64,000 nucleotides of DNA, taken from Porphyromonas loveana (GTDB lineage Bacteria > Bacteroidota > Bacteroidia > Bacteroidales > Porphyromonadaceae). The notes beneath the pieces were generated by a model, which saw nothing but the letters and a program-made list of their open reading frames with translations, was not told the origin of the DNA and did not search any database. Numbering within the stretch: position 1 is the stretch's first letter; each line of letters begins with the position of its first letter. This document shows positions 1 through 12,049 of the stretch, piece after piece. The stretch spans positions 62,395 through 126,394 of the forward strand of contig NZ_QEKY01000006.1 in NCBI RefSeq assembly GCF_003096695.1, read 5' to 3'. The position numbers and the translations under genes are program-made.

Positions 1-1512
1 TACTGGGAATAGCTTTCAGATTTAGTATCTTTGTTGTTATCGTACAGCAGTTTAAGTACTCCACCCGCTCATACGAGCACTGGGAATAGCTTTCAGATTT
101 AGTATCTTTGTTGTTATCGTACAGCGGGCGGGGCGGTTGTTTAACGTTCCAGTAGACTGGGAATAGCTTTCAGATTTAGTATCTTTGTTGTTATCGTACA
201 GCTGTCAACTTTCCCTATGAGTTTGACACAGAACTGGGAATAGCTTTCAGATTTAGTATCTTTGTTGTTATCGTACAGCTGTTCTGTTTTTTCTACGTGT
301 GTGCAATAAGACTGGGAATAGCTTTCAGATTTAGTATCTTTGTTGTTATCGTACAGCAACAGGCCTATTTATGAGACACTATTCACTACTGGGAATAGCT
401 TTCAGATTTAGTATCTTTGTTGTTATCGTACAGCAATTGGTTGATTGTATGGGAGTTAAAGAGCACTGGGAATAGCTTTCAGATTTAGTATCTTTGTTGT
501 TATCGTACAGCTGTCAACTCTCTCATAATTGTTCCTCTTTTACTGGGAATAGCTTTCAGATTTAGTATCTTTGTTGTTATCGTACAGCTGTAGAGCGTCC
601 GGAGCGCACCGTCGTGGAACTGGGAATAGCTTTCAGATTTAGTATCTTTGTTGTTATCGTACAGCAGTTTAAGTACTCCACCCGCTCATACGAGCACTGG
701 GAATAGCTTTCAGATTTAGTATCTTTGTTGTTATCGTACAGCCAGACTCCGCTGGGCGAGATCGCTGCTCGTACTGGGAATAGCTTTCAGATTTAGTATC
801 TTTGTTGTTATCGTACAGCAAGAGGAAAAAATATCGAAAACCGAATCGGACTGGGAATAGCTTTCAGATTTAGTATCTTTGTTGTTATCGTACAGCTCTA
901 TGCAAGAGTCCTTATTCGACAATCCTACTGGGAATAGCTTTCAGATTTAGTATCTTTGTTGTTATCGTACAGCAGACGGAGATTCTATTTTATCTCGTTC
1001 CTCACTGGGAATAGCTTTCAGATTTAGTATCTTTGTTGTTATCGTACAGCTCATGCGCATGGCAAGCATCTCACCAGGTAACTGGGAATAGCTTTCAGAT
1101 TTAGTATCTTTGTTGTTATCGTACAGCAATACTGGATGCGCAGAAGAGATTCGAAAGACTGGGAATAGCTTTCAGATTTAGTATCTTTGTTGTTATCGTA
1201 CAGCCTTGCGCAGGGAGATACGGAGAGCCTCTGCACTGGGAATAGCTTTCAGATTTAGTATCTTTGTTGTTATCGTACAGCATCTCGCAGACGATACGGA
1301 TGCCAAGGCGGACTGGGAATAGCTTTCAGATTTAGTATCTTTGTTGTTATCGTACAGCAACATTATGCAAAAGATTAAGATCGGCAACACTGGGAATAGC
1401 TTTCAGATTTAGTATCTTTGTTGTTATCGTACAGCCATTTGCCATTTTTTCTACAGCTTCGAGCGACTGGGAATAGCTTTCAGATTTAGTATCTTTGTTG
1501 TTATCGTACAGC
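1..1512 (+). CRISPR. Type II-C CRISPR array, 20 repeats, cut by left edge
   Basis: Twenty identical 47-nt repeats begin ACTGGGAATAGCTTTCAG and end TTGTTATCGTACAGC. They start at 2, 79, 156, 233, 311, 388, 465, 542, 619, 696, 773, 850, 927, 1004, 1081, 1158, 1235, 1312, 1389 and 1466. The 19 spacers are 30 nt, except the one at 280-310, which is 31 nt. Spacers 49-78 and 666-695 are identical. The array continues beyond the left edge. The 47/30 architecture and the internal TTAGTATCTTTG block resemble Bacteroides type II-C repeats. The plus strand is the guide strand, because the tracrRNA at 7381 is complementary to the plus-strand repeat. No leader is visible at the right end, and the last repeat is not degenerate. 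Confidence 0.98.
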
Positions 1513-1587
1513 AGATCCCCAGTAAGTATCTATGGCACAGCAATGTACGAAGCATATCAGCTCTCAAAAAAAGACTGTATGCAACCT

Positions 1588-1617
1588 AAAAGCCGAGAGT
1601 TTTCTCGGCTTTTTAGT
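1588..1617. terminator. Bidirectional terminator between CRISPR array and cas2
   Basis: Hairpin AAAAGCCGAGA, loop GTTT, TCTCGGCTTTT, followed by TAGTTTT on the plus strand and by a T-run on the minus strand. It can end both the plus-strand crRNA precursor and the minus-strand cas9-cas1-cas2 transcript, which fits convergent transcription. Confidence 0.75.
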
Positions 1618-1664
1618 TTTCTACAATATGGGCTGATGCCTTTGGGAGGAGAAGATTTATACCG

Positions 1665-2006
1665 TTAAAACAGTTCGAGTTGAAGAGGTGGCTGATAAAA
1701 CTCCCGCCCTTGGCCGCAGATGATTTCCATGGATGAAAACTGCTTATCTGTGATAGTCATCAAACCAATCTTACCTTTCTCTGGAATGGCAGACCGGACA
1801 CGCCGACAATGCGTGTCAGCATTCTCCCGACTGGCACAGTGTCTGATGTAAATGGAAAATTGGAACATTTCGAAGCCATCCTGCAGCAAGGTTTTCCTAA
1901 AAGAAGCAGCACGTTTCCGGTCTGCTGCTGTATCGGTTGGTAAATCGAAAAACACCATTACCCACATACTTCGATAGGCTGAATATCGTGATCTGTATTC
2001 GCTCAT
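1665..2006 (-). CDS. cas2: CRISPR-associated endoribonuclease Cas2
   Basis: A 113-residue protein of normal Cas2 size. It has the ferredoxin-like start WVMVFFDLPTDTAADRK, in which the Asp after VFF is the conserved metal-binding residue, and the FQFSIYIRHC segment typical of type II Cas2. With Cas1 it forms the spacer integrase. Its start abuts the cas1 stop (2007), so the two are translationally coupled. It is the last gene of the cas operon. The absence of csn2 or cas4 after it supports subtype II-C. An internal Met 14 is an alternative start, but the longer form matches the usual N-terminus of Bacteroidota homologues. Confidence 0.95.
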   Translation of the reverse strand: MSEYRSRYSAYRSMWVMVFFDLPTDTAADRKRAASFRKTLLQDGFEMFQFSIYIRHCASRENADTHCRRVRSAIPEKGKIGLMTITDKQFSSMEIICGQGREFYQPPLQLELF

Positions 2007-2945
2007 TTACAGTCGAGGATAGACCAATCTTCGCTCTTTTCCCGCAAAGCACCGATATAGTGATGTGGCACTATGATGAATGGCAATGCTCATAGGATGA
2101 GTCTTGCCATCAATAATGGTATCAATTACGGGCAAGCTTAGGAGCTGCTTTTTATGCTCTGTAGTAAGCGATGAAGGAAGATCGTTAACAGCGTTTTGGG
2201 TCATACGATAGACAAGCAGATCAACGTAGGGACGATAAGGCTCCATCAAGTCATCAGCCAAACAGAAGTGATTGTACTTATTGTGATGGAAAATACCCAC
2301 TGATGGCAATAAACCAGCTGTGGCTATCGCCCGAGCTGCCATCGCTCGAACTATGGCATATCCATAATTGAGTAGCTTGTTAGTCCAGTCGCCTTCTCTA
2401 TCTCTCTTGAAAGAAGGGAAAGAGGGAAAGATATTGGACCAATAGTATGCAGCAGCCCTTGCCTCAATATTGTCAGCATCTCCGGACTTTACCAACTCTA
2501 TCCACGCATGCATATTAGGGTGAGGCTCTCCCGTTGTTTGAGCGAGTGCCGCAGCCTGATTTGTTATTTTGGCACGGATGGTTTGCTGCCACAACTGCTT
2601 CTTGAGCGGAAGAGAGGCCTCTAATTGATCGTGTATGCGTTCGCTCAGTTCGGAGTGCCCGAGATAAGAGAGTAACATCCCCGTTGGATGGTGCGTCTCA
2701 TCACAACTAATAATAGCACAACCTTGACCGATCAGAGCAGACAGCAAGGCTTGTGTGATCGTGATTTGCTTATTATCCAACACGACTATACCCAAGTCCT
2801 CAATAGGGAAGGATTGCCGACTGCTCTTTTTCAGATGCTCCGGCAGAGTGTCTGTTAGCTCTACCTCCGGCAGCCTCACCTCCAATTGCCCCATCTTTAG
2901 TCCAAGATATGCAGGAGAGCCAAAGTATAAAGTTCGCTTAATCAT
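2007..2945 (-). CDS. cas1: CRISPR-associated endonuclease Cas1 (type II)
   Basis: 312 residues, typical of type II Cas1. It opens MIKRTLYFGSPAYLGLKMGQLEVR, the beta-strand N-terminal domain. Visible later are the GIVVLDNKQITITQALLSAL segment, the YYWSNIFPSF stretch of the alpha-helical domain, NKLLNYGYAIVRAMAARAI, and LPSVGIFHHNKYNHFCLADDLMEPYRP, which holds the conserved His and Asp of the metal site. It integrates new spacers with Cas2. It lies 14 bases after the cas9 stop and directly before cas2, so it is co-transcribed with both. Confidence 0.96.
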   Translation of the reverse strand: MIKRTLYFGSPAYLGLKMGQLEVRLPEVELTDTLPEHLKKSSRQSFPIEDLGIVVLDNKQITITQALLSALIGQGCAIISCDETHHPTGMLLSYLGHSELSERIHDQLEASLPLKKQLWQQTIRAKITNQAAALAQTTGEPHPNMHAWIELVKSGDADNIEARAAAYYWSNIFPSFPSFKRDREGDWTNKLLNYGYAIVRAMAARAIATAGLLPSVGIFHHNKYNHFCLADDLMEPYRPYVDLLVYRMTQNAVNDLPSSLTTEHKKQLLSLPVIDTIIDGKTHPMSIAIHHSATSLYRCFAGKERRLVYPRL

Positions 2946-2959
2946 TGACGCAACAATGC

Positions 2960-5900
2960 TTAGTATTCACCTACTGCAACGATTCGACCAAGATGATTGA
3001 CTCTAATTTTGACAAGCTGAGCCAAATCTTTTGCAGAACTAATTTGAACTTGAGTTACACCCCTCAGAAAAGAGGATTCTTTTTGACTACCAGAGACATA
3101 TTGCTGTTTGAACATATAGATTCTTACATATCCAACCTTTTGGCGAGTTTTGGAGATTGCTTGAACTCTAAAAATGTGTGGGGCAAGCTCTGCGTAATTA
3201 TCGGGGTTCATAATGTACTCCGGACTGAGGTCTTGGGGAACAAATGTCGTTCGTCTCTGGATCTTTCCAGTATCTATGTCCACCGTGTCCTCTTGCCGAG
3301 GTAATAGGAAGTACTCATTCTGTTTAATACTAAAAAGGAACTTCCATCCCAATGATTGATTTTTAACCTTATCAATGACTGGGAGATTCTGGTTTGACCT
3401 CTCTACCGCGTCAAAGAAACTAACGATGTCGTCCTCAATGCTGCCATCTGGTAGTGCATATACCGCTAAATGATGATTATTATCATTAGCCACATAGTCA
3501 ATAGGGCGACCAGCCTCGTGGATTGGCATGGCGTTATTCTTGCCTCTGATACGGACCGACTTGATGGCAATACCTTTTTCTTCATTCAACCAAATGGGAT
3601 TATTCTCTAAATCTGAGAATGCTTTCTCTTGTTGTCCATTATGCTTATTAAGTCTCTTTTCTAATATCCGTCTGATTCCTACGTCTATAACCTTATCAAG
3701 CTTGAGGTCTTTGTCAATCGGCTTCCGAAATACGAATCTATCGTCCAAAATCGTTTGCTTGACTTTCTTATCTGTGTATACAACGTTCATATTTTTATCC
3801 CTAAGCGGATTCTTCTCCATCGAATTCTTTCCTGTAAAGGCCAACTTAGGATCGCCGTTGAACTCTTGCAATCGTTCTGTCAAGATCGAACGAAGGAGGG
3901 GGGAGCTGACATATTGAATCTCCTCCATAGTCAATTTTGCTCCGATAGCAATCTCTTTTTCCTGATAGTAACGATTCTTGCCATACTTGGTTTCTAAATG
4001 CAATGCTCCACGAGGTGTCAAAGTCGTTTGTCGGATAGCCGTTTTGCGACCGGTCATTTTATCTCGGCCTGCAATGACATTGGTATTAGGAGTCGTTACT
4101 CTGCTTTTGACTTTGGTCGATATGATCACCCGAGAAAGAGCCTCTCTTGCTTGTGCTCTGATATTAGGCATGGGCAGGGCAAAACGCCCGTCTGATCCCA
4201 TGAGTTGAGAGCGAAGCTTCTTTAATAATTCTAGCTTTTGGCGTTTATCCGTCACATCCGATCCACTATCACCATTAAGATACTGCACATGCTTTCTGGT
4301 GGTCAAAGCTGTGACAAGGGCATCCATGGCATGGTGTCTATGGTCATTACGCTTGCTCCAGTCCTTGATAACCTTGATTGATTGACCATCCTTTCGTTCG
4401 ATCGTTTTAACAAGCTTCTCCTCGCCATTGGAAATGCGACTGTCTATCGATTCATAAATAGGCATATTAAGTTCTTTCATCGTATCAAGCAGCCCCCAGT
4501 CACGCCGCAGAATGGCTGTTATACTACCGTTGGTATGTACTATAGAAGGTGTTACTTGCAAAAGCATATCGGCAGCCAGCCGGATGATGTAACGCGTATT
4601 GGCAAGATCTCTATTGGTAAACTCATCGCTTAGATCCTTCTCGAGCAAGAGGAGCTTTTTGTATTTGGCAGGGCTGATCATTCTACTCTTTTTGAGTTCC
4701 TCTACTCGAAGTACATATTCGTTGGCTTGTTGGAATCCAAGAGTCCCCATATAGTCCAATGCAGTCTTGTTCCCCTTGTTCTTGTTCACAGCATTCAACT
4801 CCAACGTTTTGTTCGAGAAACTATCGTCATAGAACAGCGCCTTCGGAATGATATGCTCTATATCAAACTTAGGAGTGAATAACTCCTCAAGAGGGATATG
4901 CGTATTCGAATACAAGGTTTTATATCCCAGTGGCGCAAGCTCTTTCCATAGTCGATACTTGACGAGATCATTCTTAGAGGGATTATTAATTCCACATTTA
5001 ATTTTTATCTCCTCAAGGTAGAGCACATTGCGTTTGGCTGCCTCTGCGATAGACGCTGTCATTGCCTTACGCTGTTTGCTATTGGATTGCATATCACGAG
5101 CCATCTCAAGGCGAATTTCATCCGGATTTCCATATTCGGCTATATGGGCATTGATTACATGAACCATCTGGTTGAGGATTTTTTCCACAACAGGATTGCG
5201 CAATGTTCCCTTGCGGAGCAAAGGTAATTTGTCAATCAGCTTACGTTGGTTATTTTCCTCTTTTGTCGTCCAAGAACTATGACGATAACCGGCCAATTTA
5301 CAAGCTTGGTCATATTGATGTTCTGGTAAAAACGGGAGTATTTTGCGCATTGCCTTCGTACTTAGAGAGGCATACTCTTGTTCAAAACTCAATGACGCTA
5401 AAGGTGGACACAATTCAGGAGAAATACCGTATCGCTTGGACAAAGCTTTGCATAAGGATGTTATCCCCGTAGGCGAATTATCATCCTCTGAAGAATAGAG
5501 AAGATGCCACAAACTATAGTGAGGTTGTTTCCTTAGATCATCAGCAAAAGGATCAAAATGCAATAACTCGGAATTTATGCCCTCATTATTAAAGAATTGG
5601 CGAATGACATCTATCACTTGCTCGGGAGAAAGGGCAGGTTGTCCATTGGTGATTTTAGTTAGATTCTTTTCCCATTCGATCTGTTCTCCATCCGCCATCT
5701 CCTTCATGGTAAAGAATGCTCTCATCATCCTATTGTTAGTCCGATTTCCAAGCACTTCTCTAAAATTAAGCTTCCAAACATCCGAGTTGTATCCGAGAAT
5801 ATTCAGTATCTCATTCTCACTAAGGGAATCAAGGAGGTTGAGATAGCCAAATAATTTTTCTTTTGCCTCAAGGCAGAGAAATCCTCCTTGATCTGTCTTT

Positions 5901-7246
5901 TCGTCCTGCTGAAACAATTGCGCCTCCTGTTTATCCCATTTTCTAAGCCGTGAGACTTCGATCTGCCCTAATCGTTGCCATAATCTAAAGTGCTGAAAAA
6001 TAGGAGAGGACTTTGGAGCAACACGTAGACCTTCGGTGTATTTGCGTCCATTTCGCTCAATCTCATGGGACTCGAATTCACAGAATGCCAGTTCGGATTT
6101 CTTCGATTTAAGAGGGCGTTGATAGAAAATAATACGGTTTCGGATGGGAAGCTTAGCTTCTTTCGTTAAGACTTCCGGATAGAATTTCTCCTGCTGCGCC
6201 CAAATACGATCAAATTCGTCGAGATAGTCTTGTCGATAGAAGACTTCGCCCCTAACCCTGTCATGAGGATTTTTCTGCAACCTTTGGTATAAGTATTCTC
6301 CGATTGTTTGATCGTTGGCAAACAAAATGCGACTACGATCCCCTATGGCTCCCAAATAACTACTGCTGCCGTTGATTTGTTTGCAGACTGATATGATGGC
6401 AGCTATCGCCATTGGAATAGAGATAACGCCTGCAGCTGCTAAGCTTCGACATTCGTAAGAAAAGTATTTGTTGAGAATGCTTTTACGGAGTTTCTTTCCA
6501 TTGAGATAATCTTTGGGCAGCTCTGCTGGAGCAAGATTTGTCTTCGAGAATATGTGCTTTTCGAACTTTCCAGTCTTTAGATTTAGCAATGAGTCAAGCA
6601 AATCTTGCGTGAAAATGTTAGGATTTGTCTGTGCTTGGATATCCCAAATTTGCTTGAGTTCATTCGTGAGGTCAAAAATGTAGAAATCTATCTCAGCATA
6701 TTTCCCCTGAACATATCGGTCGAACATATATTGCCCCGGAGTCTTCTTGTTTCTGATTAACTCCTTTGTTACAGCCATGGCATCAACCAATTTGCCGTCT
6801 TCTTCTGCACTCTTGCCTGTTTTTCGATTGCTCTTGTAGCCCCTACGTTTATTGATTGTCAGAAGAACTCTGGCAAATTCTTCTAAAGAAACCTTTTCGG
6901 AAGCAGCTTTTGAGCGTATTCTAAGGAGTTCGTGCGTGTCTGAGATTGGCTTCTGAAGGATCTTCTCTCTATCTTCAATAATCCCTGTCTTTTGTAGATG
7001 CTGCAACAAGCTTGATCGGCGCTGTTTGTAGCGTTGGAGTCTGCGACGCATAGAGCGTTTTGTTGTCCGGTCAGTTGTTGGAGAACACGACAATCCTTTG
7101 TTGAAATTTTCCGCATCAGCCGAAGACAATACTGTTCGCGTACTCAGATAAACTATTTTAGTTTGTTCTTCGGGCCTCTCTCCTTCTAAGACATAGGCTC
7201 CTCCAATAGAAGTCGTTCCGAGGTCTAAACCAAGTATTTTTTTCAT
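2960..7246 (-). CDS. cas9: RNA-guided endonuclease Cas9, type II-C, large Bacteroidota form
   Basis: 1428 residues from the chosen start (MKKILGLDLGTTSIGG). An upstream in-frame Met at 7288 would add 14 residues ahead of the canonical RuvC-I start and is less likely. Domains in order: RuvC-I with catalytic Asp 8; arginine-rich bridge helix about 45-85 (KRSMRRRLQRYKQRR); a long recognition lobe; RuvC-II IRLEMARD with Glu 714; HNH motif FDIEHIIP with His 798, followed by the NKNKGNKT loop; RuvC-III DHRHHAMDALV with His 972 and Asp 975; and a C-terminal PAM-interacting region. All nuclease residues are present. It is longer than Neisseria or Campylobacter II-C Cas9 but of the size usual for Bacteroidota. 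First gene of cas9-cas1-cas2, divergent from the tracrRNA. Confidence 0.97.
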   Translation of the reverse strand: MKKILGLDLGTTSIGGAYVLEGERPEEQTKIVYLSTRTVLSSADAENFNKGLSCSPTTDRTTKRSMRRRLQRYKQRRSSLLQHLQKTGIIEDREKILQKPISDTHELLRIRSKAASEKVSLEEFARVLLTINKRRGYKSNRKTGKSAEEDGKLVDAMAVTKELIRNKKTPGQYMFDRYVQGKYAEIDFYIFDLTNELKQIWDIQAQTNPNIFTQDLLDSLLNLKTGKFEKHIFSKTNLAPAELPKDYLNGKKLRKSILNKYFSYECRSLAAAGVISIPMAIAAIISVCKQINGSSSYLGAIGDRSRILFANDQTIGEYLYQRLQKNPHDRVRGEVFYRQDYLDEFDRIWAQQEKFYPEVLTKEAKLPIRNRIIFYQRPLKSKKSELAFCEFESHEIERNGRKYTEGLRVAPKSSPIFQHFRLWQRLGQIEVSRLRKWDKQEAQLFQQDEKTDQGGFLCLEAKEKLFGYLNLLDSLSENEILNILGYNSDVWKLNFREVLGNRTNNRMMRAFFTMKEMADGEQIEWEKNLTKITNGQPALSPEQVIDVIRQFFNNEGINSELLHFDPFADDLRKQPHYSLWHLLYSSEDDNSPTGITSLCKALSKRYGISPELCPPLASLSFEQEYASLSTKAMRKILPFLPEHQYDQACKLAGYRHSSWTTKEENNQRKLIDKLPLLRKGTLRNPVVEKILNQMVHVINAHIAEYGNPDEIRLEMARDMQSNSKQRKAMTASIAEAAKRNVLYLEEIKIKCGINNPSKNDLVKYRLWKELAPLGYKTLYSNTHIPLEELFTPKFDIEHIIPKALFYDDSFSNKTLELNAVNKNKGNKTALDYMGTLGFQQANEYVLRVEELKKSRMISPAKYKKLLLLEKDLSDEFTNRDLANTRYIIRLAADMLLQVTPSIVHTNGSITAILRRDWGLLDTMKELNMPIYESIDSRISNGEEKLVKTIERKDGQSIKVIKDWSKRNDHRHHAMDALVTALTTRKHVQYLNGDSGSDVTDKRQKLELLKKLRSQLMGSDGRFALPMPNIRAQAREALSRVIISTKVKSRVTTPNTNVIAGRDKMTGRKTAIRQTTLTPRGALHLETKYGKNRYYQEKEIAIGAKLTMEEIQYVSSPLLRSILTERLQEFNGDPKLAFTGKNSMEKNPLRDKNMNVVYTDKKVKQTILDDRFVFRKPIDKDLKLDKVIDVGIRRILEKRLNKHNGQQEKAFSDLENNPIWLNEEKGIAIKSVRIRGKNNAMPIHEAGRPIDYVANDNNHHLAVYALPDGSIEDDIVSFFDAVERSNQNLPVIDKVKNQSLGWKFLFSIKQNEYFLLPRQEDTVDIDTGKIQRRTTFVPQDLSPEYIMNPDNYAELAPHIFRVQAISKTRQKVGYVRIYMFKQQYVSGSQKESSFLRGVTQVQISSAKDLAQLVKIRVNHLGRIVAVGEY

Positions 7247-7328
7247 CGTTTTAAAATTGTTTAGTATCAAATACATCTCAACTACCAAGGACTGAGAAGT
7301 AAAGACAGCGTTAATACAGCTGTTCGCA

Positions 7329-7359
7329 CAAAAATAAACAAATCATTTTGTTATTTCAA
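7329..7359 (-). promoter_or_regulatory. Probable cas9 operon promoter
   Basis: Read on the minus strand there is a -7 box TATTTTTG (7329-7336) with TTG (7357-7359) 20 bases upstream, matching the Bacteroidota promoter pattern. A start near 7322 would give a leader of about 75 nt. It overlaps the divergent tracrRNA promoter. Confidence 0.45.
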
Positions 7360-7377
7360 TAACTTGAAGTATATTTG
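7347..7377 (+). promoter_or_regulatory. tracrRNA promoter
   Basis: TTTG (7347-7350), 19 bases, then TATATTTG (7370-7377). This is an exact match to the Bacteroidota consensus TTTG-N19-TAnnTTTG. The predicted start, about 5 bases after the -7 box, falls at the first base of the anti-repeat. Confidence 0.75.
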
Positions 7378-7380
7378 CAG

Positions 7381-7476
7381 TACTAAATCTGAAGCTTTTC
7401 CCAACAAGGATTTTATTCCGTTGTGAAAACATTAAGAACAGGCTCTTCGAAGTTTTTCGGAGAGCTTCTTCTTTTT
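7381..7476 (+). ncRNA. tracrRNA of the type II-C CRISPR-Cas9 system
   Basis: The first 22 bases, TACTAAATCTGAAGCTTTTCCC, are an anti-repeat. TACTAAATCTGAA pairs perfectly over 13 bases with TTCAGATTTAGTA of the plus-strand repeat. After a short bulge, TTCCCA pairs with TGGGAA near the repeat start. Next comes a small nexus-like hairpin (ACAAGGA with TCCGTTGT, one bulge, 7403-7422), then a strong terminal hairpin (GCTCTTCGAA/TTCGGAGAGC, 7442-7465) and a TTCTTCTTTTT run ending near 7476. It guides RNase III processing and Cas9 loading. Length about 96 nt; ends are inferred. Confidence 0.88.
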
Positions 7477-7542
7477 GAGCCTTATACTCTTCAATGCTCT
7501 TAGTTCATTCGGCTCTGTCTGCAGATAAGTCTTTATTTGGCT

Positions 7543-7550
7543 TATCTTTG
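7543..7550 (+). promoter_or_regulatory. Probable nadBCA promoter (-7 box)
   Basis: TATCTTTG fits TAnnTTTG and is followed by CC. No clear -33 box is seen. A transcription start near 7556 argues for translation from the ATG at 7573 rather than from earlier in-frame starts. Confidence 0.45.
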
Positions 7551-7572
7551 CCGTCGTATGAAATTATCCGGA

Positions 7573-9108
7573 ATGAATCGGTATGATTATATCGTCGTAG
7601 GAGGAGGGCTGGCAGGTCTCTATACGGCTTTCAAAGCATCGAGGCTTGGGCGGGTCGCTCTTATTACCAAGGCTGATATCCATGAAAGCAATTCTTACTT
7701 TGCACAAGGGGGGATTGCTGCCGTCACGGCAGCCGACGATGCGCCCGTTGATCACTATAGCGATACGGTGGAAGCCGGTCGCGGACTCTGCGAAGACGAA
7801 GCTGTAAGGGTGCTTACGGAAGAAGCGCCTGCCCGCATCTCTGAGCTGATCGAATGGGGAATGCGCTTCGACACGGAAGCAGACGGGCATCTGGCTCTTG
7901 CTCTCGAAGGAGGGCACCATCACAAGCGCATCTTACACGCCGGCGGGGATTCGACCGGTAGGATGATCACCAGCTTCATGATCGATAGCGTTCTCGCCAC
8001 ACCTGAAATAGAGATTTTTGTCAATCATCAGGCGGTGGAACTCCTCATCGACAGCAATGGCTGTCGGGGAGTACGCACATGGGACTGGGATCAAAGTCAG
8101 GAGGTTGTCTTCTATGGCAAACACACGGTGATGGCTACCGGCGGATCGGCTGCCATCTACCGACGTTCCACCAATCCGCAGACAACGCTCGGCGACGGCA
8201 TCGCCCTCTGTTATCAAGCTGGCTGCGAAGTGAGAGACATGGAGTTCGTGCAGTTCCATCCGACAGCACTATACAACCCGGGTGGCGAAGCTTTCCTAAT
8301 CAGCGAAGCGGTCCGAGGCGAGGGAGCCCACTTATATAATAGTAAGGGCGAGCGTTTCATGCAAGGCGTTCACGAACTTGCCGAATTAGCCCCGCGCGAC
8401 ACCGTTGCCCGTCAGATCTTCATGGAGATGCGACGATTGGGCGACGAGTACGTTTATCTCGACCTGAGGCATTTGGATCCGGATATGATTCATAAACGTT
8501 TCCCCACGATCTGCGCCCGCTGCGCGGAGTTAGGGCTTGACATGACGGATCGAATTCCCGTGGCTCCTGCTGCACATTATACAGTGGGAGGTGTGAGTAC
8601 GGATCTGAACGGCTGTACGGCTGTGCCCCATCTCTATGCCGTTGGCGAAGTGGCATCGACCGGAATAATGGGCGCCAATAGGTTGGCCTCCAACTCGTTG
8701 ATCGAATGCCTTGTCTTCGGCCATCGTGTCGTGGAGGATACAGTAAGCAGAGCGTCTTCCGTCCACCTCGACAACCTGCCGAAGCAGGTTGCAGGCACAG
8801 AGCCGAAGGACGTGACGATCTATCATACCATCCGCGAGCAACTCTCCAAACTGATGACCCATCATGTGGGCATCATCCGAAACGAAGACGGATTGCTATC
8901 GGTTCGGAGCCGGATCGAAGAGCTCAGGCGGTCGCTCTGCGGAGTCAACGACCTCTATGCTTCCTTCGCGGAGCAACTCCTCATCGTCGCACAACTGATC
9001 GTGCAAGGCGCTCTGGACCGTCACGAAAGCAGAGGCGGACATTATCGGGAGGATTACCCCGAGACCAGAGATGCCTACCGCAAGCATTCGTCCTACTCGC
9101 TTGGTTGA
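7573..9108 (+). CDS. nadB: L-aspartate oxidase
   Basis: 511 residues. It oxidises L-aspartate to iminoaspartate, the first step of de novo NAD synthesis, with FAD and probably fumarate as acceptor in an anaerobe. The N-terminal FAD-binding fold shows YIVVGGGLAGLYTA. SNSYFAQGGIAAV, HPTALYNPGGEAFLISEAVRGEGA and APAAHYTVGGV are succinate dehydrogenase/aspartate oxidase family signatures, and the GANRLASNSLIECLVFG segment is characteristic of NadB. The C-terminal helical domain is intact. The ATG at 7573 (MNRYDYIVV) was chosen because the -7 box at 7543 lies inside longer versions. Followed 59 bases later by nadC. Confidence 0.95.
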   Translation: MNRYDYIVVGGGLAGLYTAFKASRLGRVALITKADIHESNSYFAQGGIAAVTAADDAPVDHYSDTVEAGRGLCEDEAVRVLTEEAPARISELIEWGMRFDTEADGHLALALEGGHHHKRILHAGGDSTGRMITSFMIDSVLATPEIEIFVNHQAVELLIDSNGCRGVRTWDWDQSQEVVFYGKHTVMATGGSAAIYRRSTNPQTTLGDGIALCYQAGCEVRDMEFVQFHPTALYNPGGEAFLISEAVRGEGAHLYNSKGERFMQGVHELAELAPRDTVARQIFMEMRRLGDEYVYLDLRHLDPDMIHKRFPTICARCAELGLDMTDRIPVAPAAHYTVGGVSTDLNGCTAVPHLYAVGEVASTGIMGANRLASNSLIECLVFGHRVVEDTVSRASSVHLDNLPKQVAGTEPKDVTIYHTIREQLSKLMTHHVGIIRNEDGLLSVRSRIEELRRSLCGVNDLYASFAEQLLIVAQLIVQGALDRHESRGGHYREDYPETRDAYRKHSSYSLG

Positions 9109-9167
9109 GAAAAAAAGGAGAAAGAACTAATCATAGTAAAGACCCCAATACATCCTATTACGAAGTT

Positions 9168-10010
9168 ATGACTCATGAAGAAATGCTCTTGGAACGACTG
9201 ATCGATCTGGCCATCGCCGAAGACATAGCCGATGGCGATATTTCCTCCAATGCGATCATTCCCCAGTCGGAAAAGGCTGTGGCTACCATGACAATGAAAG
9301 CCGATGGCGTTATCTCCGGCATGGAAGTGGCGCGTCGGGTCTTCGAGCGATTCGACACCGTTACTTGGACTCCATATGTGGCTGACGGCGACACGGTAAA
9401 GCGCGGACAGACCATTCTGCAGATAGAAGGCAGCTATCGGGCTTTGCTACAGGCCGAACGTCTGGCTCTCAACTTCCTACAGCGCATGAGCGGCATCGCC
9501 ACGATGACAGCACGCTATGCCGAAGCCATAGCCGGCACGCAGGTGCGACTGCTGGACACCAGAAAGACAGCTCCCGGGATGCGCATTACAGACAAGATGG
9601 CTGTTCGTCACGGCGGCGGGCACAATCATCGGATGGGGCTTTATGACATGATCATGCTCAAGGACAATCATGTGAAGATAGCCGGAGGCATAACTAAGGC
9701 GATCGAATCGGCCAGACGGGATCTGCCATTGTCGATCAAGCTGGAAGTGGAAACGTCCACACTCTCTCATGTAGAAGAAGCCGTGCAATGTGGTGCCGAC
9801 ATCATCATGCTGGACAATATGGACAACGACACCATGAAACGTGCTGTGGAGCTGATCGCCGGTCGTGCCAAGACGGAAGCCAGTGGCAATATGAACCTCG
9901 AACGCATCCGTAGCGTGGCAGAGACAGGGGTGGACTACATCAGCGTAGGCGCTCTGACCCATAGTGTGACAGCCATGGACATCAGTATGAACTTTCTTGT
10001 AGCACAATAA
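9168..10010 (+). CDS. nadC: Nicotinate-nucleotide pyrophosphorylase (carboxylating)
   Basis: 280 residues, the usual length. It converts quinolinate and PRPP to nicotinate mononucleotide, CO2 and pyrophosphate. Family hallmarks: the AEDIADGDISS N-terminus, ERLALNFLQRMSGIAT, LDTRKTAPGMR (quinolinate-binding Arg and Lys), KMAVRHGGGHNHRMGLYDMIMLKDNH, KLEVET, IMLDNM and TGVDYISVGALTHS of the barrel. The ATG at 9168 starts the family-typical N-terminus; the frame is open further upstream, but that sequence overlaps nadB and looks like no known domain. Middle gene of nadB-nadC-nadA, 10 bases before nadA. Confidence 0.95.
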   Translation: MTHEEMLLERLIDLAIAEDIADGDISSNAIIPQSEKAVATMTMKADGVISGMEVARRVFERFDTVTWTPYVADGDTVKRGQTILQIEGSYRALLQAERLALNFLQRMSGIATMTARYAEAIAGTQVRLLDTRKTAPGMRITDKMAVRHGGGHNHRMGLYDMIMLKDNHVKIAGGITKAIESARRDLPLSIKLEVETSTLSHVEEAVQCGADIIMLDNMDNDTMKRAVELIAGRAKTEASGNMNLERIRSVAETGVDYISVGALTHSVTAMDISMNFLVAQ

Positions 10011-10020
10011 GCAAACGACC

Positions 10021-10947
10021 ATGCAGACTAAAGAAATCATTCGTGAGATAGAGCGCCTCAAGAAAGAGAAGAATGCCATTATCTTGGCGCACTACTATGC
10101 ACGGCCGGAGGTGCAGGATATTGCAGACTACATAGGCGATTCGCTGGGGCTATCCCGTCAGGCGGCAGAGACCCAAGCCGATGTGATCCTCTTCTGTGGG
10201 GTGCACTTCATGGCTGAGACTGCTTCGATCATTTCTCCCGACAAGACGATCCTGACTCCTACCGAATACGCAGGATGTTCATTGGCGGAAGGAGCTTCGG
10301 CCAAAGGGCTGCAAAAGTGGAAGGAAAAGAACCCCGACGGTTTGGTCGTGAGCTACGTGAATACGACGGCCGAGGTAAAGGCATGGACGGACTACTGCTG
10401 TACCAGCAGCAATGCACTCAAAGTGGTGGAGAGCCTGCCGAAAGACAAGAAGATTCTCTTCGGGCCGGACAGGAATCTCGGTGCTTATATCCGAGAGAAG
10501 ACAGGACGTGACATGGAGCTATGGGATGCTGCCTGCTTCGTGCATGAGCGCATCAGCACGGAAGCCATTTTGGAGACTTTGGAGCTGTATCCGGATGCCG
10601 ACATCCTCATTCATCCCGAAAGCGCAGGCGCACATTCGCAAGAGGTATTGACTAACGAACGATGCTTTATGTACTCAACGGCGGGTATCCTCAAGCATGC
10701 TCGTGAGTCAGACAAGAAGCAATTTGTCATCGCAACTGAACCAGAGATTCTCCACTTCCTCCACAAAGAGAATACGGGCAAGACATTCATCCCCATCCAA
10801 CCGGAGAACCGCTGCTTCCACATGAAGCAGAGCGGTCTGTGGGAGGTATTGGAAGCATTGCGCCTCAATCGTTATGAGGTGAAGGTACCTGCAGACATCC
10901 GCGAAAAGGCTCTCTTCTCCATCGAACGAATGATGGCCATCGGATAA
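10021..10947 (+). CDS. nadA: Quinolinate synthase A
   Basis: 308 residues. This [4Fe-4S] enzyme condenses iminoaspartate (from NadB) with dihydroxyacetone phosphate to make quinolinate for NadC. Motifs: IILAHYYARPEVQDIADYIGDSLGLS, CGVHFMAETASI with the first cluster Cys, EYAGCSLAEG, YVNTTAEVKAWTDYCCTSSNA with the second, HPESAGAHSQEV, and NRCFHMK with the third. The cluster is oxygen-sensitive, which suits an anaerobe. Last gene of nadBCA; no clear terminator is seen before moxR. Confidence 0.95.
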   Translation: MQTKEIIREIERLKKEKNAIILAHYYARPEVQDIADYIGDSLGLSRQAAETQADVILFCGVHFMAETASIISPDKTILTPTEYAGCSLAEGASAKGLQKWKEKNPDGLVVSYVNTTAEVKAWTDYCCTSSNALKVVESLPKDKKILFGPDRNLGAYIREKTGRDMELWDAACFVHERISTEAILETLELYPDADILIHPESAGAHSQEVLTNERCFMYSTAGILKHARESDKKQFVIATEPEILHFLHKENTGKTFIPIQPENRCFHMKQSGLWEVLEALRLNRYEVKVPADIREKALFSIERMMAIG

Positions 10948-11053
10948 GGGCTTAAACCATAGAAGAATCCGTGTGTCCAAAATATCATAGTGGTGCATGT
11001 CGCCATTCAGACAAACGGAACAAAGAATTAATGAACAGATCATAGACAACCCA

Positions 11054-12049
11054 ATGAGTGAAACCATTGACATCAAAGCTCTCACCGAGCTGATAGAGCA
11101 GAAAAGCTCATTCGTGAATCTCATCTCGCGCGGCATGGCGCAGAATATCGTAGGGCAGAACCACTTAGTCGAATCCTTGCTGATCGGTCTCCTGGCCGAT
11201 GGTCACATATTGCTCGAAGGTGTTCCCGGACTGGCCAAGACGCTGGCCATAAAAACGCTGGCAGGACTGATTGATGCCAAGTACAATCGTATCCAGTTCA
11301 CCCCTGACCTATTGCCGGCCGACGTGGTGGGAACGATGATGTACAGCCAGAAGCGCGAAGAGTTCCAAGTGAAGCAGGGACCGATATTTGCCAACTTCAT
11401 CCTCGCCGATGAAATCAACCGTGCACCGGCCAAGGTGCAAAGTGCTCTGCTCGAAGCCATGCAGGAAAGACAGGTGACCATCGGTGAGACCACATACAAA
11501 CTGCCCGAACCATTCCTCGTCATGGCGACGCAGAATCCCATCGAACAGGAAGGCACCTACCAACTGCCCGAAGCACAGGTGGACCGTTTCATGATGAAGG
11601 TGCTGATAGACTATCCCGAGAAGAAAGAGGAAATGCAGATCATTCGTCAGAATATCGGCGGTGAATTGTCGGACATCCGTCCCGTCATCAATACGGCTGA
11701 AATACTGGAAGCTCGACGCGTGGTCAGACAGGTGTATTTGGACGAGAAGATCGAACGCTATATCGTTGACATTGTTTTTGCCACACGCTATCCTGAGCAG
11801 TTTGGTTTGAACGATCTGAAGGATATGATCAGCTTCGGTGCTTCGCCCCGTGCTTCCATCAATCTGGCTTTGGCCGCGAGAGCCTATGCTTTCATCAAAC
11901 ACAGAGGTTACGTAATTCCCGAAGATGTGCGTGCCGTATGCCACGACGTCATGCGCCATCGCATCGGCCTAAGCTACGAAGCCGAGGCCAACAACCTGAC
12001 GGCCGACGCTGTGATAAATGAAATACTGAACAAAGTAGAGGTACCCTAA
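11054..12049 (+). CDS. MoxR-family AAA+ ATPase
   Basis: 331 residues from the ATG at 11054 (MSETIDIKAL). A longer reading from 10997 is open but atypical. Walker A-like GVPGLAKT, Walker B ILADEINRAP, sensor 1 MATQNPIEQEGTYQLPEAQVDRF, the R-finger region and the C-terminal lid are all present. MoxR ATPases act as chaperone-like partners of VWA-domain proteins. The next five genes (DUF58, membrane protein, BatA, BatB, BatC) form the standard MoxR/VWA module, whose role in Bacteroidota is linked to envelope stress and aerotolerance. Begins the operon, 12 bases before the next gene. Confidence 0.93.
   Translation: MSETIDIKALTELIEQKSSFVNLISRGMAQNIVGQNHLVESLLIGLLADGHILLEGVPGLAKTLAIKTLAGLIDAKYNRIQFTPDLLPADVVGTMMYSQKREEFQVKQGPIFANFILADEINRAPAKVQSALLEAMQERQVTIGETTYKLPEPFLVMATQNPIEQEGTYQLPEAQVDRFMMKVLIDYPEKKEEMQIIRQNIGGELSDIRPVINTAEILEARRVVRQVYLDEKIERYIVDIVFATRYPEQFGLNDLKDMISFGASPRASINLALAARAYAFIKHRGYVIPEDVRAVCHDVMRHRIGLSYEAEANNLTADAVINEILNKVEVP

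Follow-up and report, generated by a model that had tools for sequence, protein, structure and literature searches.

The general rule for most CRISPR types is transcription of the array from a promoter in the leader. A 2013 study by Zhang reportedly found a promoter in each repeat, and no leader promoter, in Neisseria meningitidis, and the type II-C repeat of Campylobacter jejuni measures 36 nt. Promoters within II-C repeats are already known in Campylobacter: the excerpts of the original report describe a promoter in each C. jejuni repeat, with the start drawn within each spacer (Dugar 2013, PMC3656092). Among Bacteroidota, repeat-encoded transcription has been proposed for Flavobacterium columnare and F. 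psychrophilum from a TTG at a distance of 33 or 35 bp ahead of every spacer, the excerpted papers also giving, for the former, eight reads within the array that run toward the leader and, for the latter, transcription of both halves of an IS-split array (PMC8092290, PMC10309648), while no leader was assignable in the excerpted account of the B. fragilis II-C system (PMC5704556). The literature searched yielded no Bacteroidota II-C array with mapped 5' ends, and a partial search, mostly outside subscription journals, yielded no statement that II-C repeats carry TAnnTTTG.

The locus analyzed herein lies in a 64,000-nt stretch of Porphyromonas loveana DNA (the window), where each repeat probably drives transcription of the spacer that follows it, with Bacteroidota signals but otherwise in the manner of Campylobacter; on sequence comparison, the probability of this reading is put at roughly 0.8. 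The 47-nt repeat would be a two-part module, the first ~24 nt of which would pair with the tracrRNA and serve the spacer before it as guide scaffold, whereas the last ~22-25 nt would provide the TAnnTTTG -7 element of the Bacteroidota primary sigma factor together with the first transcribed bases; the -33 element would be the triplet spanning repeat positions 2-4, which is TTG in most species but CTG in the window. With the box centred on -7, as the excerpted study of B. thetaiotaomicron places it (PMC7366714), transcription would start at about repeat positions 35-37, leaving 11-13 nt to the spacer; the initial annotation had supposed a start in the last ~8-10 repeat bases. Each crRNA would begin with those 11-13 nt of repeat. 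In the same study, B. thetaiotaomicron VPI-5482 itself has no CRISPR array, either by annotation or by search. Because each spacer is proposed to have its own promoter, no leader promoter would be needed, and transcripts from the last repeat would end at a hairpin (1588-1613) before cas2. Use of the sigma factor, actual transcription, the start site and later trimming are what we infer; the argument is built on the box itself, on how well it is conserved and how it is spaced, on its lying beyond the tracrRNA duplex, and on its survival in the oldest repeat. The relevant features of the window are as follows.

2..1512, + strand: part of the CRISPR array in the window, 20 repeats of 47 nt and 19 spacers of 30-31 nt
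3..5, + strand: CTG, weak -33-like triplet of the first window repeat (repeat positions 2-4), 20 nt before the box
26..33, + strand: -7 box TATCTTTG of the first window repeat; the last copy is at 1490-1497
37, + strand: start of transcription predicted for the first unit, at about repeat position 36 (+/-1-2) with a box centred on -7
1588..1613, + strand: terminator-like hairpin and T run, 75 nt beyond the end of the array; putative function
1665..2006, - strand: cas2 (TIGR01573, E 2.7e-20)
2007..2945, - strand: cas1, type II (TIGR03639, 285 bits, cut-off 120)
2960..7243, - strand: cas9, 1427 aa (TIGR01865, 480 bits, cut-off 100)
7348..7350, + strand: TTG, -33-like element of the tracrRNA gene by sequence, 19 nt before its -7 box
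7370..7377, + strand: TATATTTG, -7 box of the tracrRNA gene by sequence
7380..7482, + strand: predicted tracrRNA, with anti-repeat 7380-7394 against repeat positions 13-27; probable ends

The adjacent cas9, type II cas1 and cas2 genes on the - strand make up a type II-C gene set; no other - strand ORF of at least 80 aa is listed between 1665 and 7288, csn2 and cas4 being apparently absent. Beyond cas9, on the + strand, the promoter-like sequence TTG-N19-TATATTTG stands directly before the tracrRNA gene, the predicted product of which folds at -31.5 kcal/mol (z -4.06) with stable 3' hairpins; an Rfam search of positions 1-12000 gave no matches. Pairing between repeat positions 13-27 and the anti-repeat at 7380-7394(+) identifies the + strand as the guide strand. 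An identical 30-nt spacer occurs twice (49-78 and 666-695) and has a match, at 2 mismatches, in a tail gene from a Porphyromonas phage record, the spacer at 897-926 matches a Porphyromonas gingivalis phage record with 2 mismatches, and a spacer upstream of the window (L009:3287) matches a P. gingivalis phage record with 1 mismatch. A PAM check on 3 distinct spacers with protospacers in P. gingivalis phages gave no clear common motif alongside, so that the orientation of the array rests on the tracrRNA. The same genome also holds a second Cas1 over the I-B cut-off (G000:C11:51627-52634; L264, L271); the array next to it has 30-nt repeats that lack the box.

The 20 window repeats, from 2-48 to 1466-1512, are identical, and the whole array, which continues upstream of the window, has 37 repeats in the contig stretch read. 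At the guide-strand 5' end, opposite the cas2 side, the first repeat differs at two positions (3 and 15); this may be the oldest, degenerate end, with new spacers probably entering at the cas2 side. As the initial annotation had stated, an exact TAnnTTTG, here TATCTTTG, occupies repeat positions 25-32 on the guide strand (20/20 window repeats), and CTG lies 20 nt before it at repeat positions 2-4; the -33 position is thus CTG, not TTG, in the window. Further copies of TATCTTTG are found in the window at 7543(+), 24468(-), 42881(-) and 49795(-). Taken alone, the window is weak evidence, because 20 identical copies count once and the repeat is T-rich, 5.2% (mononucleotide) and 6.0% (dinucleotide) of its shuffled copies containing TAnnTTTG.

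Cas9 loci for comparison were sought at two levels, across the phylum (395 genomes) and across the order (393 genomes). The phylum search placed 65 genomes over the cut-off, from which 55 long regions were taken, the order search matched 141 genomes, from which 60 regions were taken, picked by eye for array room, and a Cas9 alignment search of genome contigs gave the best 80 of 533 confirmed loci; short loci L010-L039, and locus L308, which was obtained after counting, stand outside the counts. The 196 loci (155 with and 41 without a usable array; 162 with a tracrRNA candidate) hold 146 distinct repeats, 115 of them long (at least 43 nt) and 31 short (36 nt). Identical repeats were counted once, and repeats were oriented independently of the box by matching their first 16-18 nt to GTTGTGAATTGCTTTC (at least 8/16). 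Side observations from this set are 36-nt arrays ~43-101 nt from a candidate cas9 ORF of 1430-1527 aa, with no room for cas1/cas2 between them (L061, L062, L068, L070), and single array-oriented repeat copies apart from the detected array (L110:18236-18283, L163:18537-18583), perhaps old remnants.

Poor conservation among related II-C repeats was not seen. TAnnTTTG is the commonest XXnnXXXX pattern from position 18 on in an unbiased ranking, with 69/115 distinct long repeats containing it exactly (shuffle mean 2.4, max 9, 300 trials) and 1/115 on the reverse strand; it starts at position 23-27 in 68 long repeats and occurs in 31/64 representatives at 80% identity (shuffle mean 1.5). At least five of its six fixed bases are present at start 22-28 in 99/115 long repeats, the shuffle mean being 10.7. 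The exact box is found in 29/54 named loci with long arrays, including Riemerella anatipestifer L143, a species whose repeats were given no promoter in the excerpts of an earlier study (PMC5006608). Porphyromonadaceae locus L163 has it too, and the block TTAGTATCTTTG, which the initial annotation had ascribed to Bacteroides II-C repeats, is indeed present in Bacteroides-labelled loci L154 and L162. Exact copies are absent from 46/115 long repeats, from same-genus locus L186, from same-family locus L308 and from 27/31 short repeats (present in 4/31); the box is a trait of the long repeats and not of the phylum's 36-nt II-C repeats. Box state underwent at least 19 changes on a FastTree Cas9 tree of 114. 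None of 38 distinct repeats beside I-B/I-C-type Cas1 (60 Bacteroidota loci, both strands) has TAnnTTTG, these repeats of 29-33 nt offering fewer positions than 47 nt. Separately, 16/31 short repeats have TAnnTT or ATATT as their last bases, possibly a repeat-end promoter box of the Campylobacter kind.

Descent alone does not explain the box, because the following 12 nt have diverged to a mean pairwise identity of 0.31, near random (30 representatives). The distance from box to repeat end is 16 nt in 42/69 repeats, which makes a measured position for acquisition possible: TATCTTTG might be an adaptation signal, a repeat-internal ruler or anchor for Cas1-Cas2 during repeat copying. In other types, Cas1-Cas2 complexes rely on motifs within the repeat, and such signals would be required in the leader-side repeat of every growing array. 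Nevertheless, the distance is 8-17 nt in the other 27 repeats and the box start varies over 23-27, the oldest repeat takes no part in acquisition yet mostly keeps the box, and ordinary promoters share both the motif and its spacing. This explanation is judged quite unlikely.

The comparison with ordinary promoters employs spacing re-derived from 1163 intergenic segments. Upstream of intergenic TAnnTTTG boxes in the 196 loci (308 boxes), TTG peaks at gaps of 18, 19 and 20 nt, with 13, 19 and 31 occurrences, and falls to 2-10 at the other 17 gaps; the corresponding counts before tracrRNA boxes (133 boxes) are 14, 29 and 35. Repeats have TTG at positions 2-4 in 112/115 distinct long sequences, and the gap between this TTG and the box is 18-22 nt in 66/69 exact-box repeats. 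The spacing in repeats matches that of the ordinary and tracrRNA promoters of the same loci. TTG at positions 2-4 is weak evidence by itself, as pairing with the tracrRNA also needs TTG there.

Pairing raises the further possibility that the motif is an RNA element serving tracrRNA pairing or processing. The TA of the box and the preceding G often pair with the tracrRNA 5' end, the duplex stopping at the box's T in 20/63 cases; TTTG, however, lies outside the duplex in 51/63 loci when the earliest possible tracrRNA start is assumed, the overlap is limited to 1-2 bases in 10 of the other 12, and the repeat by itself has no unusual fold (z 0.00). An RNA role is accordingly hardly credible as the main reason for the motif. 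Covariation of repeat and tracrRNA boxes at their eighth base was considered and set aside: Fisher's test gave 6e-5, but 7 independent pairs, too few to reach 0.05 once phylogeny is taken into account, gave a median p of 0.375.

Another explanation is that one long precursor is made from an upstream leader promoter, with the repeat motif kept for some other reason or by descent. For the VI-B arrays of P. gingivalis, the excerpts of their description place the start a long way upstream (PMC13187072), and boxes occur in the 200 nt upstream of 18/97 long arrays on the sense strand, against a shuffle mean of 11.3 (max 18), with full promoter-like sites upstream of 4 (shuffle mean 1.0, max 5). Because upstream boxes exceed the shuffle mean, some of the arrays could have an extra promoter upstream. 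The sense sites are nevertheless no commoner than antisense ones (18 vs 21 boxes; 4 vs 7 full sites), TAnnTTTG is absent from the 970 nt before the window's array, and the divergence of the tail after the box speaks against the box being kept by descent alone. Transcription solely as one long precursor is regarded as very unlikely, and promoters within the repeats remain the preferred reading.

The oldest repeat offers a further line of evidence. In a II-C array the oldest repeat comes first, and its 5' half is the scaffold for no spacer. Across 58 box-bearing arrays, this repeat has 0.192 substitutions per site before the box (260/1352), 0.013 in TTTG (3/232) and 0.016 in the tail (14/903), with 0.002-0.004 for internal repeats in the same analysis; the count uses the longest detected block, such that split arrays, the window's included, give a mid-array repeat and add zeros to all regions alike. 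The test was repeated, in the breakpoint and TTG analyses, after walking to the array end. Under a breakpoint model, 55/99 long arrays have a partial first unit, of which 47 lost at most 23 nt and 8 lost more (6/52 beyond 23 vs 15/38 expected, p 1.3e-5). Examples of extra half repeats are those of L044, L153 and L214. Among 32 partial extra units whose array repeat has the exact box, 24 retain it, the units without it being those of L114, L136, L154, L177, L211, L225, L229 and L231; the extra unit of L230 keeps the box with a diverged tail. Re-creation of a -33 TTG in truncated extra repeats was also considered and is not convincing (TTG at a gap of 17-22 in 8/32).

Retention of the inner part of the oldest repeat goes beyond what a promoter would call for, in that tail conservation equals that of the box (0.016 vs 0.013) and exceeds the need of a bare promoter. 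Among 11 Cas12a control arrays, 2 of which lack a readable end at the end of the stretch, the outer edge is replaced and the inner kept in L296, L297 and L301, and L295 is irregular. Since the terminal repeats of Cas12a arrays, a small set, also show it, inner-half retention is not unique to II-C; to our knowledge, these terminal repeats have no promoter role. In the excerpts of a recent study, mutations of the II-C extra repeat concentrate in the first 15 nt and are read as suppression of extraneous crRNA, with promoter retention suggested in the discussion (Feussner 2025, PMC12080349). The crRNA-suppression and promoter-retention readings fit together. By a narrow balance of probability, long Bacteroidota II-C repeats may be bipartite, with a scaffold half and a promoter half, and the extra repeat may shed the scaffold half, removing a useless extraneous crRNA, while surviving as a promoter-only half that keeps the oldest spacer transcribed. 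Neither the Bacteroidota box nor box-bounded breakpoints appear in those excerpts (Feussner 2025, PMC12080349); both are features of the present analysis.

Promoters embedded in the repeats and built on the Bacteroidota -7 consensus, as the initial annotation had proposed, are thus favoured by the comparative evidence, albeit as a prediction from sequence. If true, the arrangement would explain leader-free guide-RNA production in a large group of Cas9 systems from gut, oral and aquatic Bacteroidota, may help to account for the ~11 nt by which their repeats exceed 36-nt ones and for the mainly one-sided decay of the oldest repeat, and predicts a constant repeat-derived 5' end of native crRNAs.

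Among described systems, Neisseria meningitidis is alike in having a promoter in each repeat (here predicted) and no leader promoter. Its repeat promoters follow a sigma-70 type consensus within a 36-nt repeat; here the consensus is that of Bacteroidota. The Flavobacterium proposals, in the excerpts of both papers, name only TTG in the repeats and no box (PMC8092290, PMC10309648), and the F. columnare repeats are 36 nt, a length at which repeats of the present set mostly lack TAnnTTTG (27/31). Campylobacter jejuni, as described in the excerpts of its report (PMC3656092), shares one promoter per repeat (here predicted), singly transcribed crRNAs, a set of only three cas genes and a tracrRNA. 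Unlike C. jejuni, in which a -10 box occupies the 3' part of the repeat, the present array has a Bacteroidota -7 box at positions 25-32 of a 47-nt repeat, and its transcripts are predicted to start inside the repeat.
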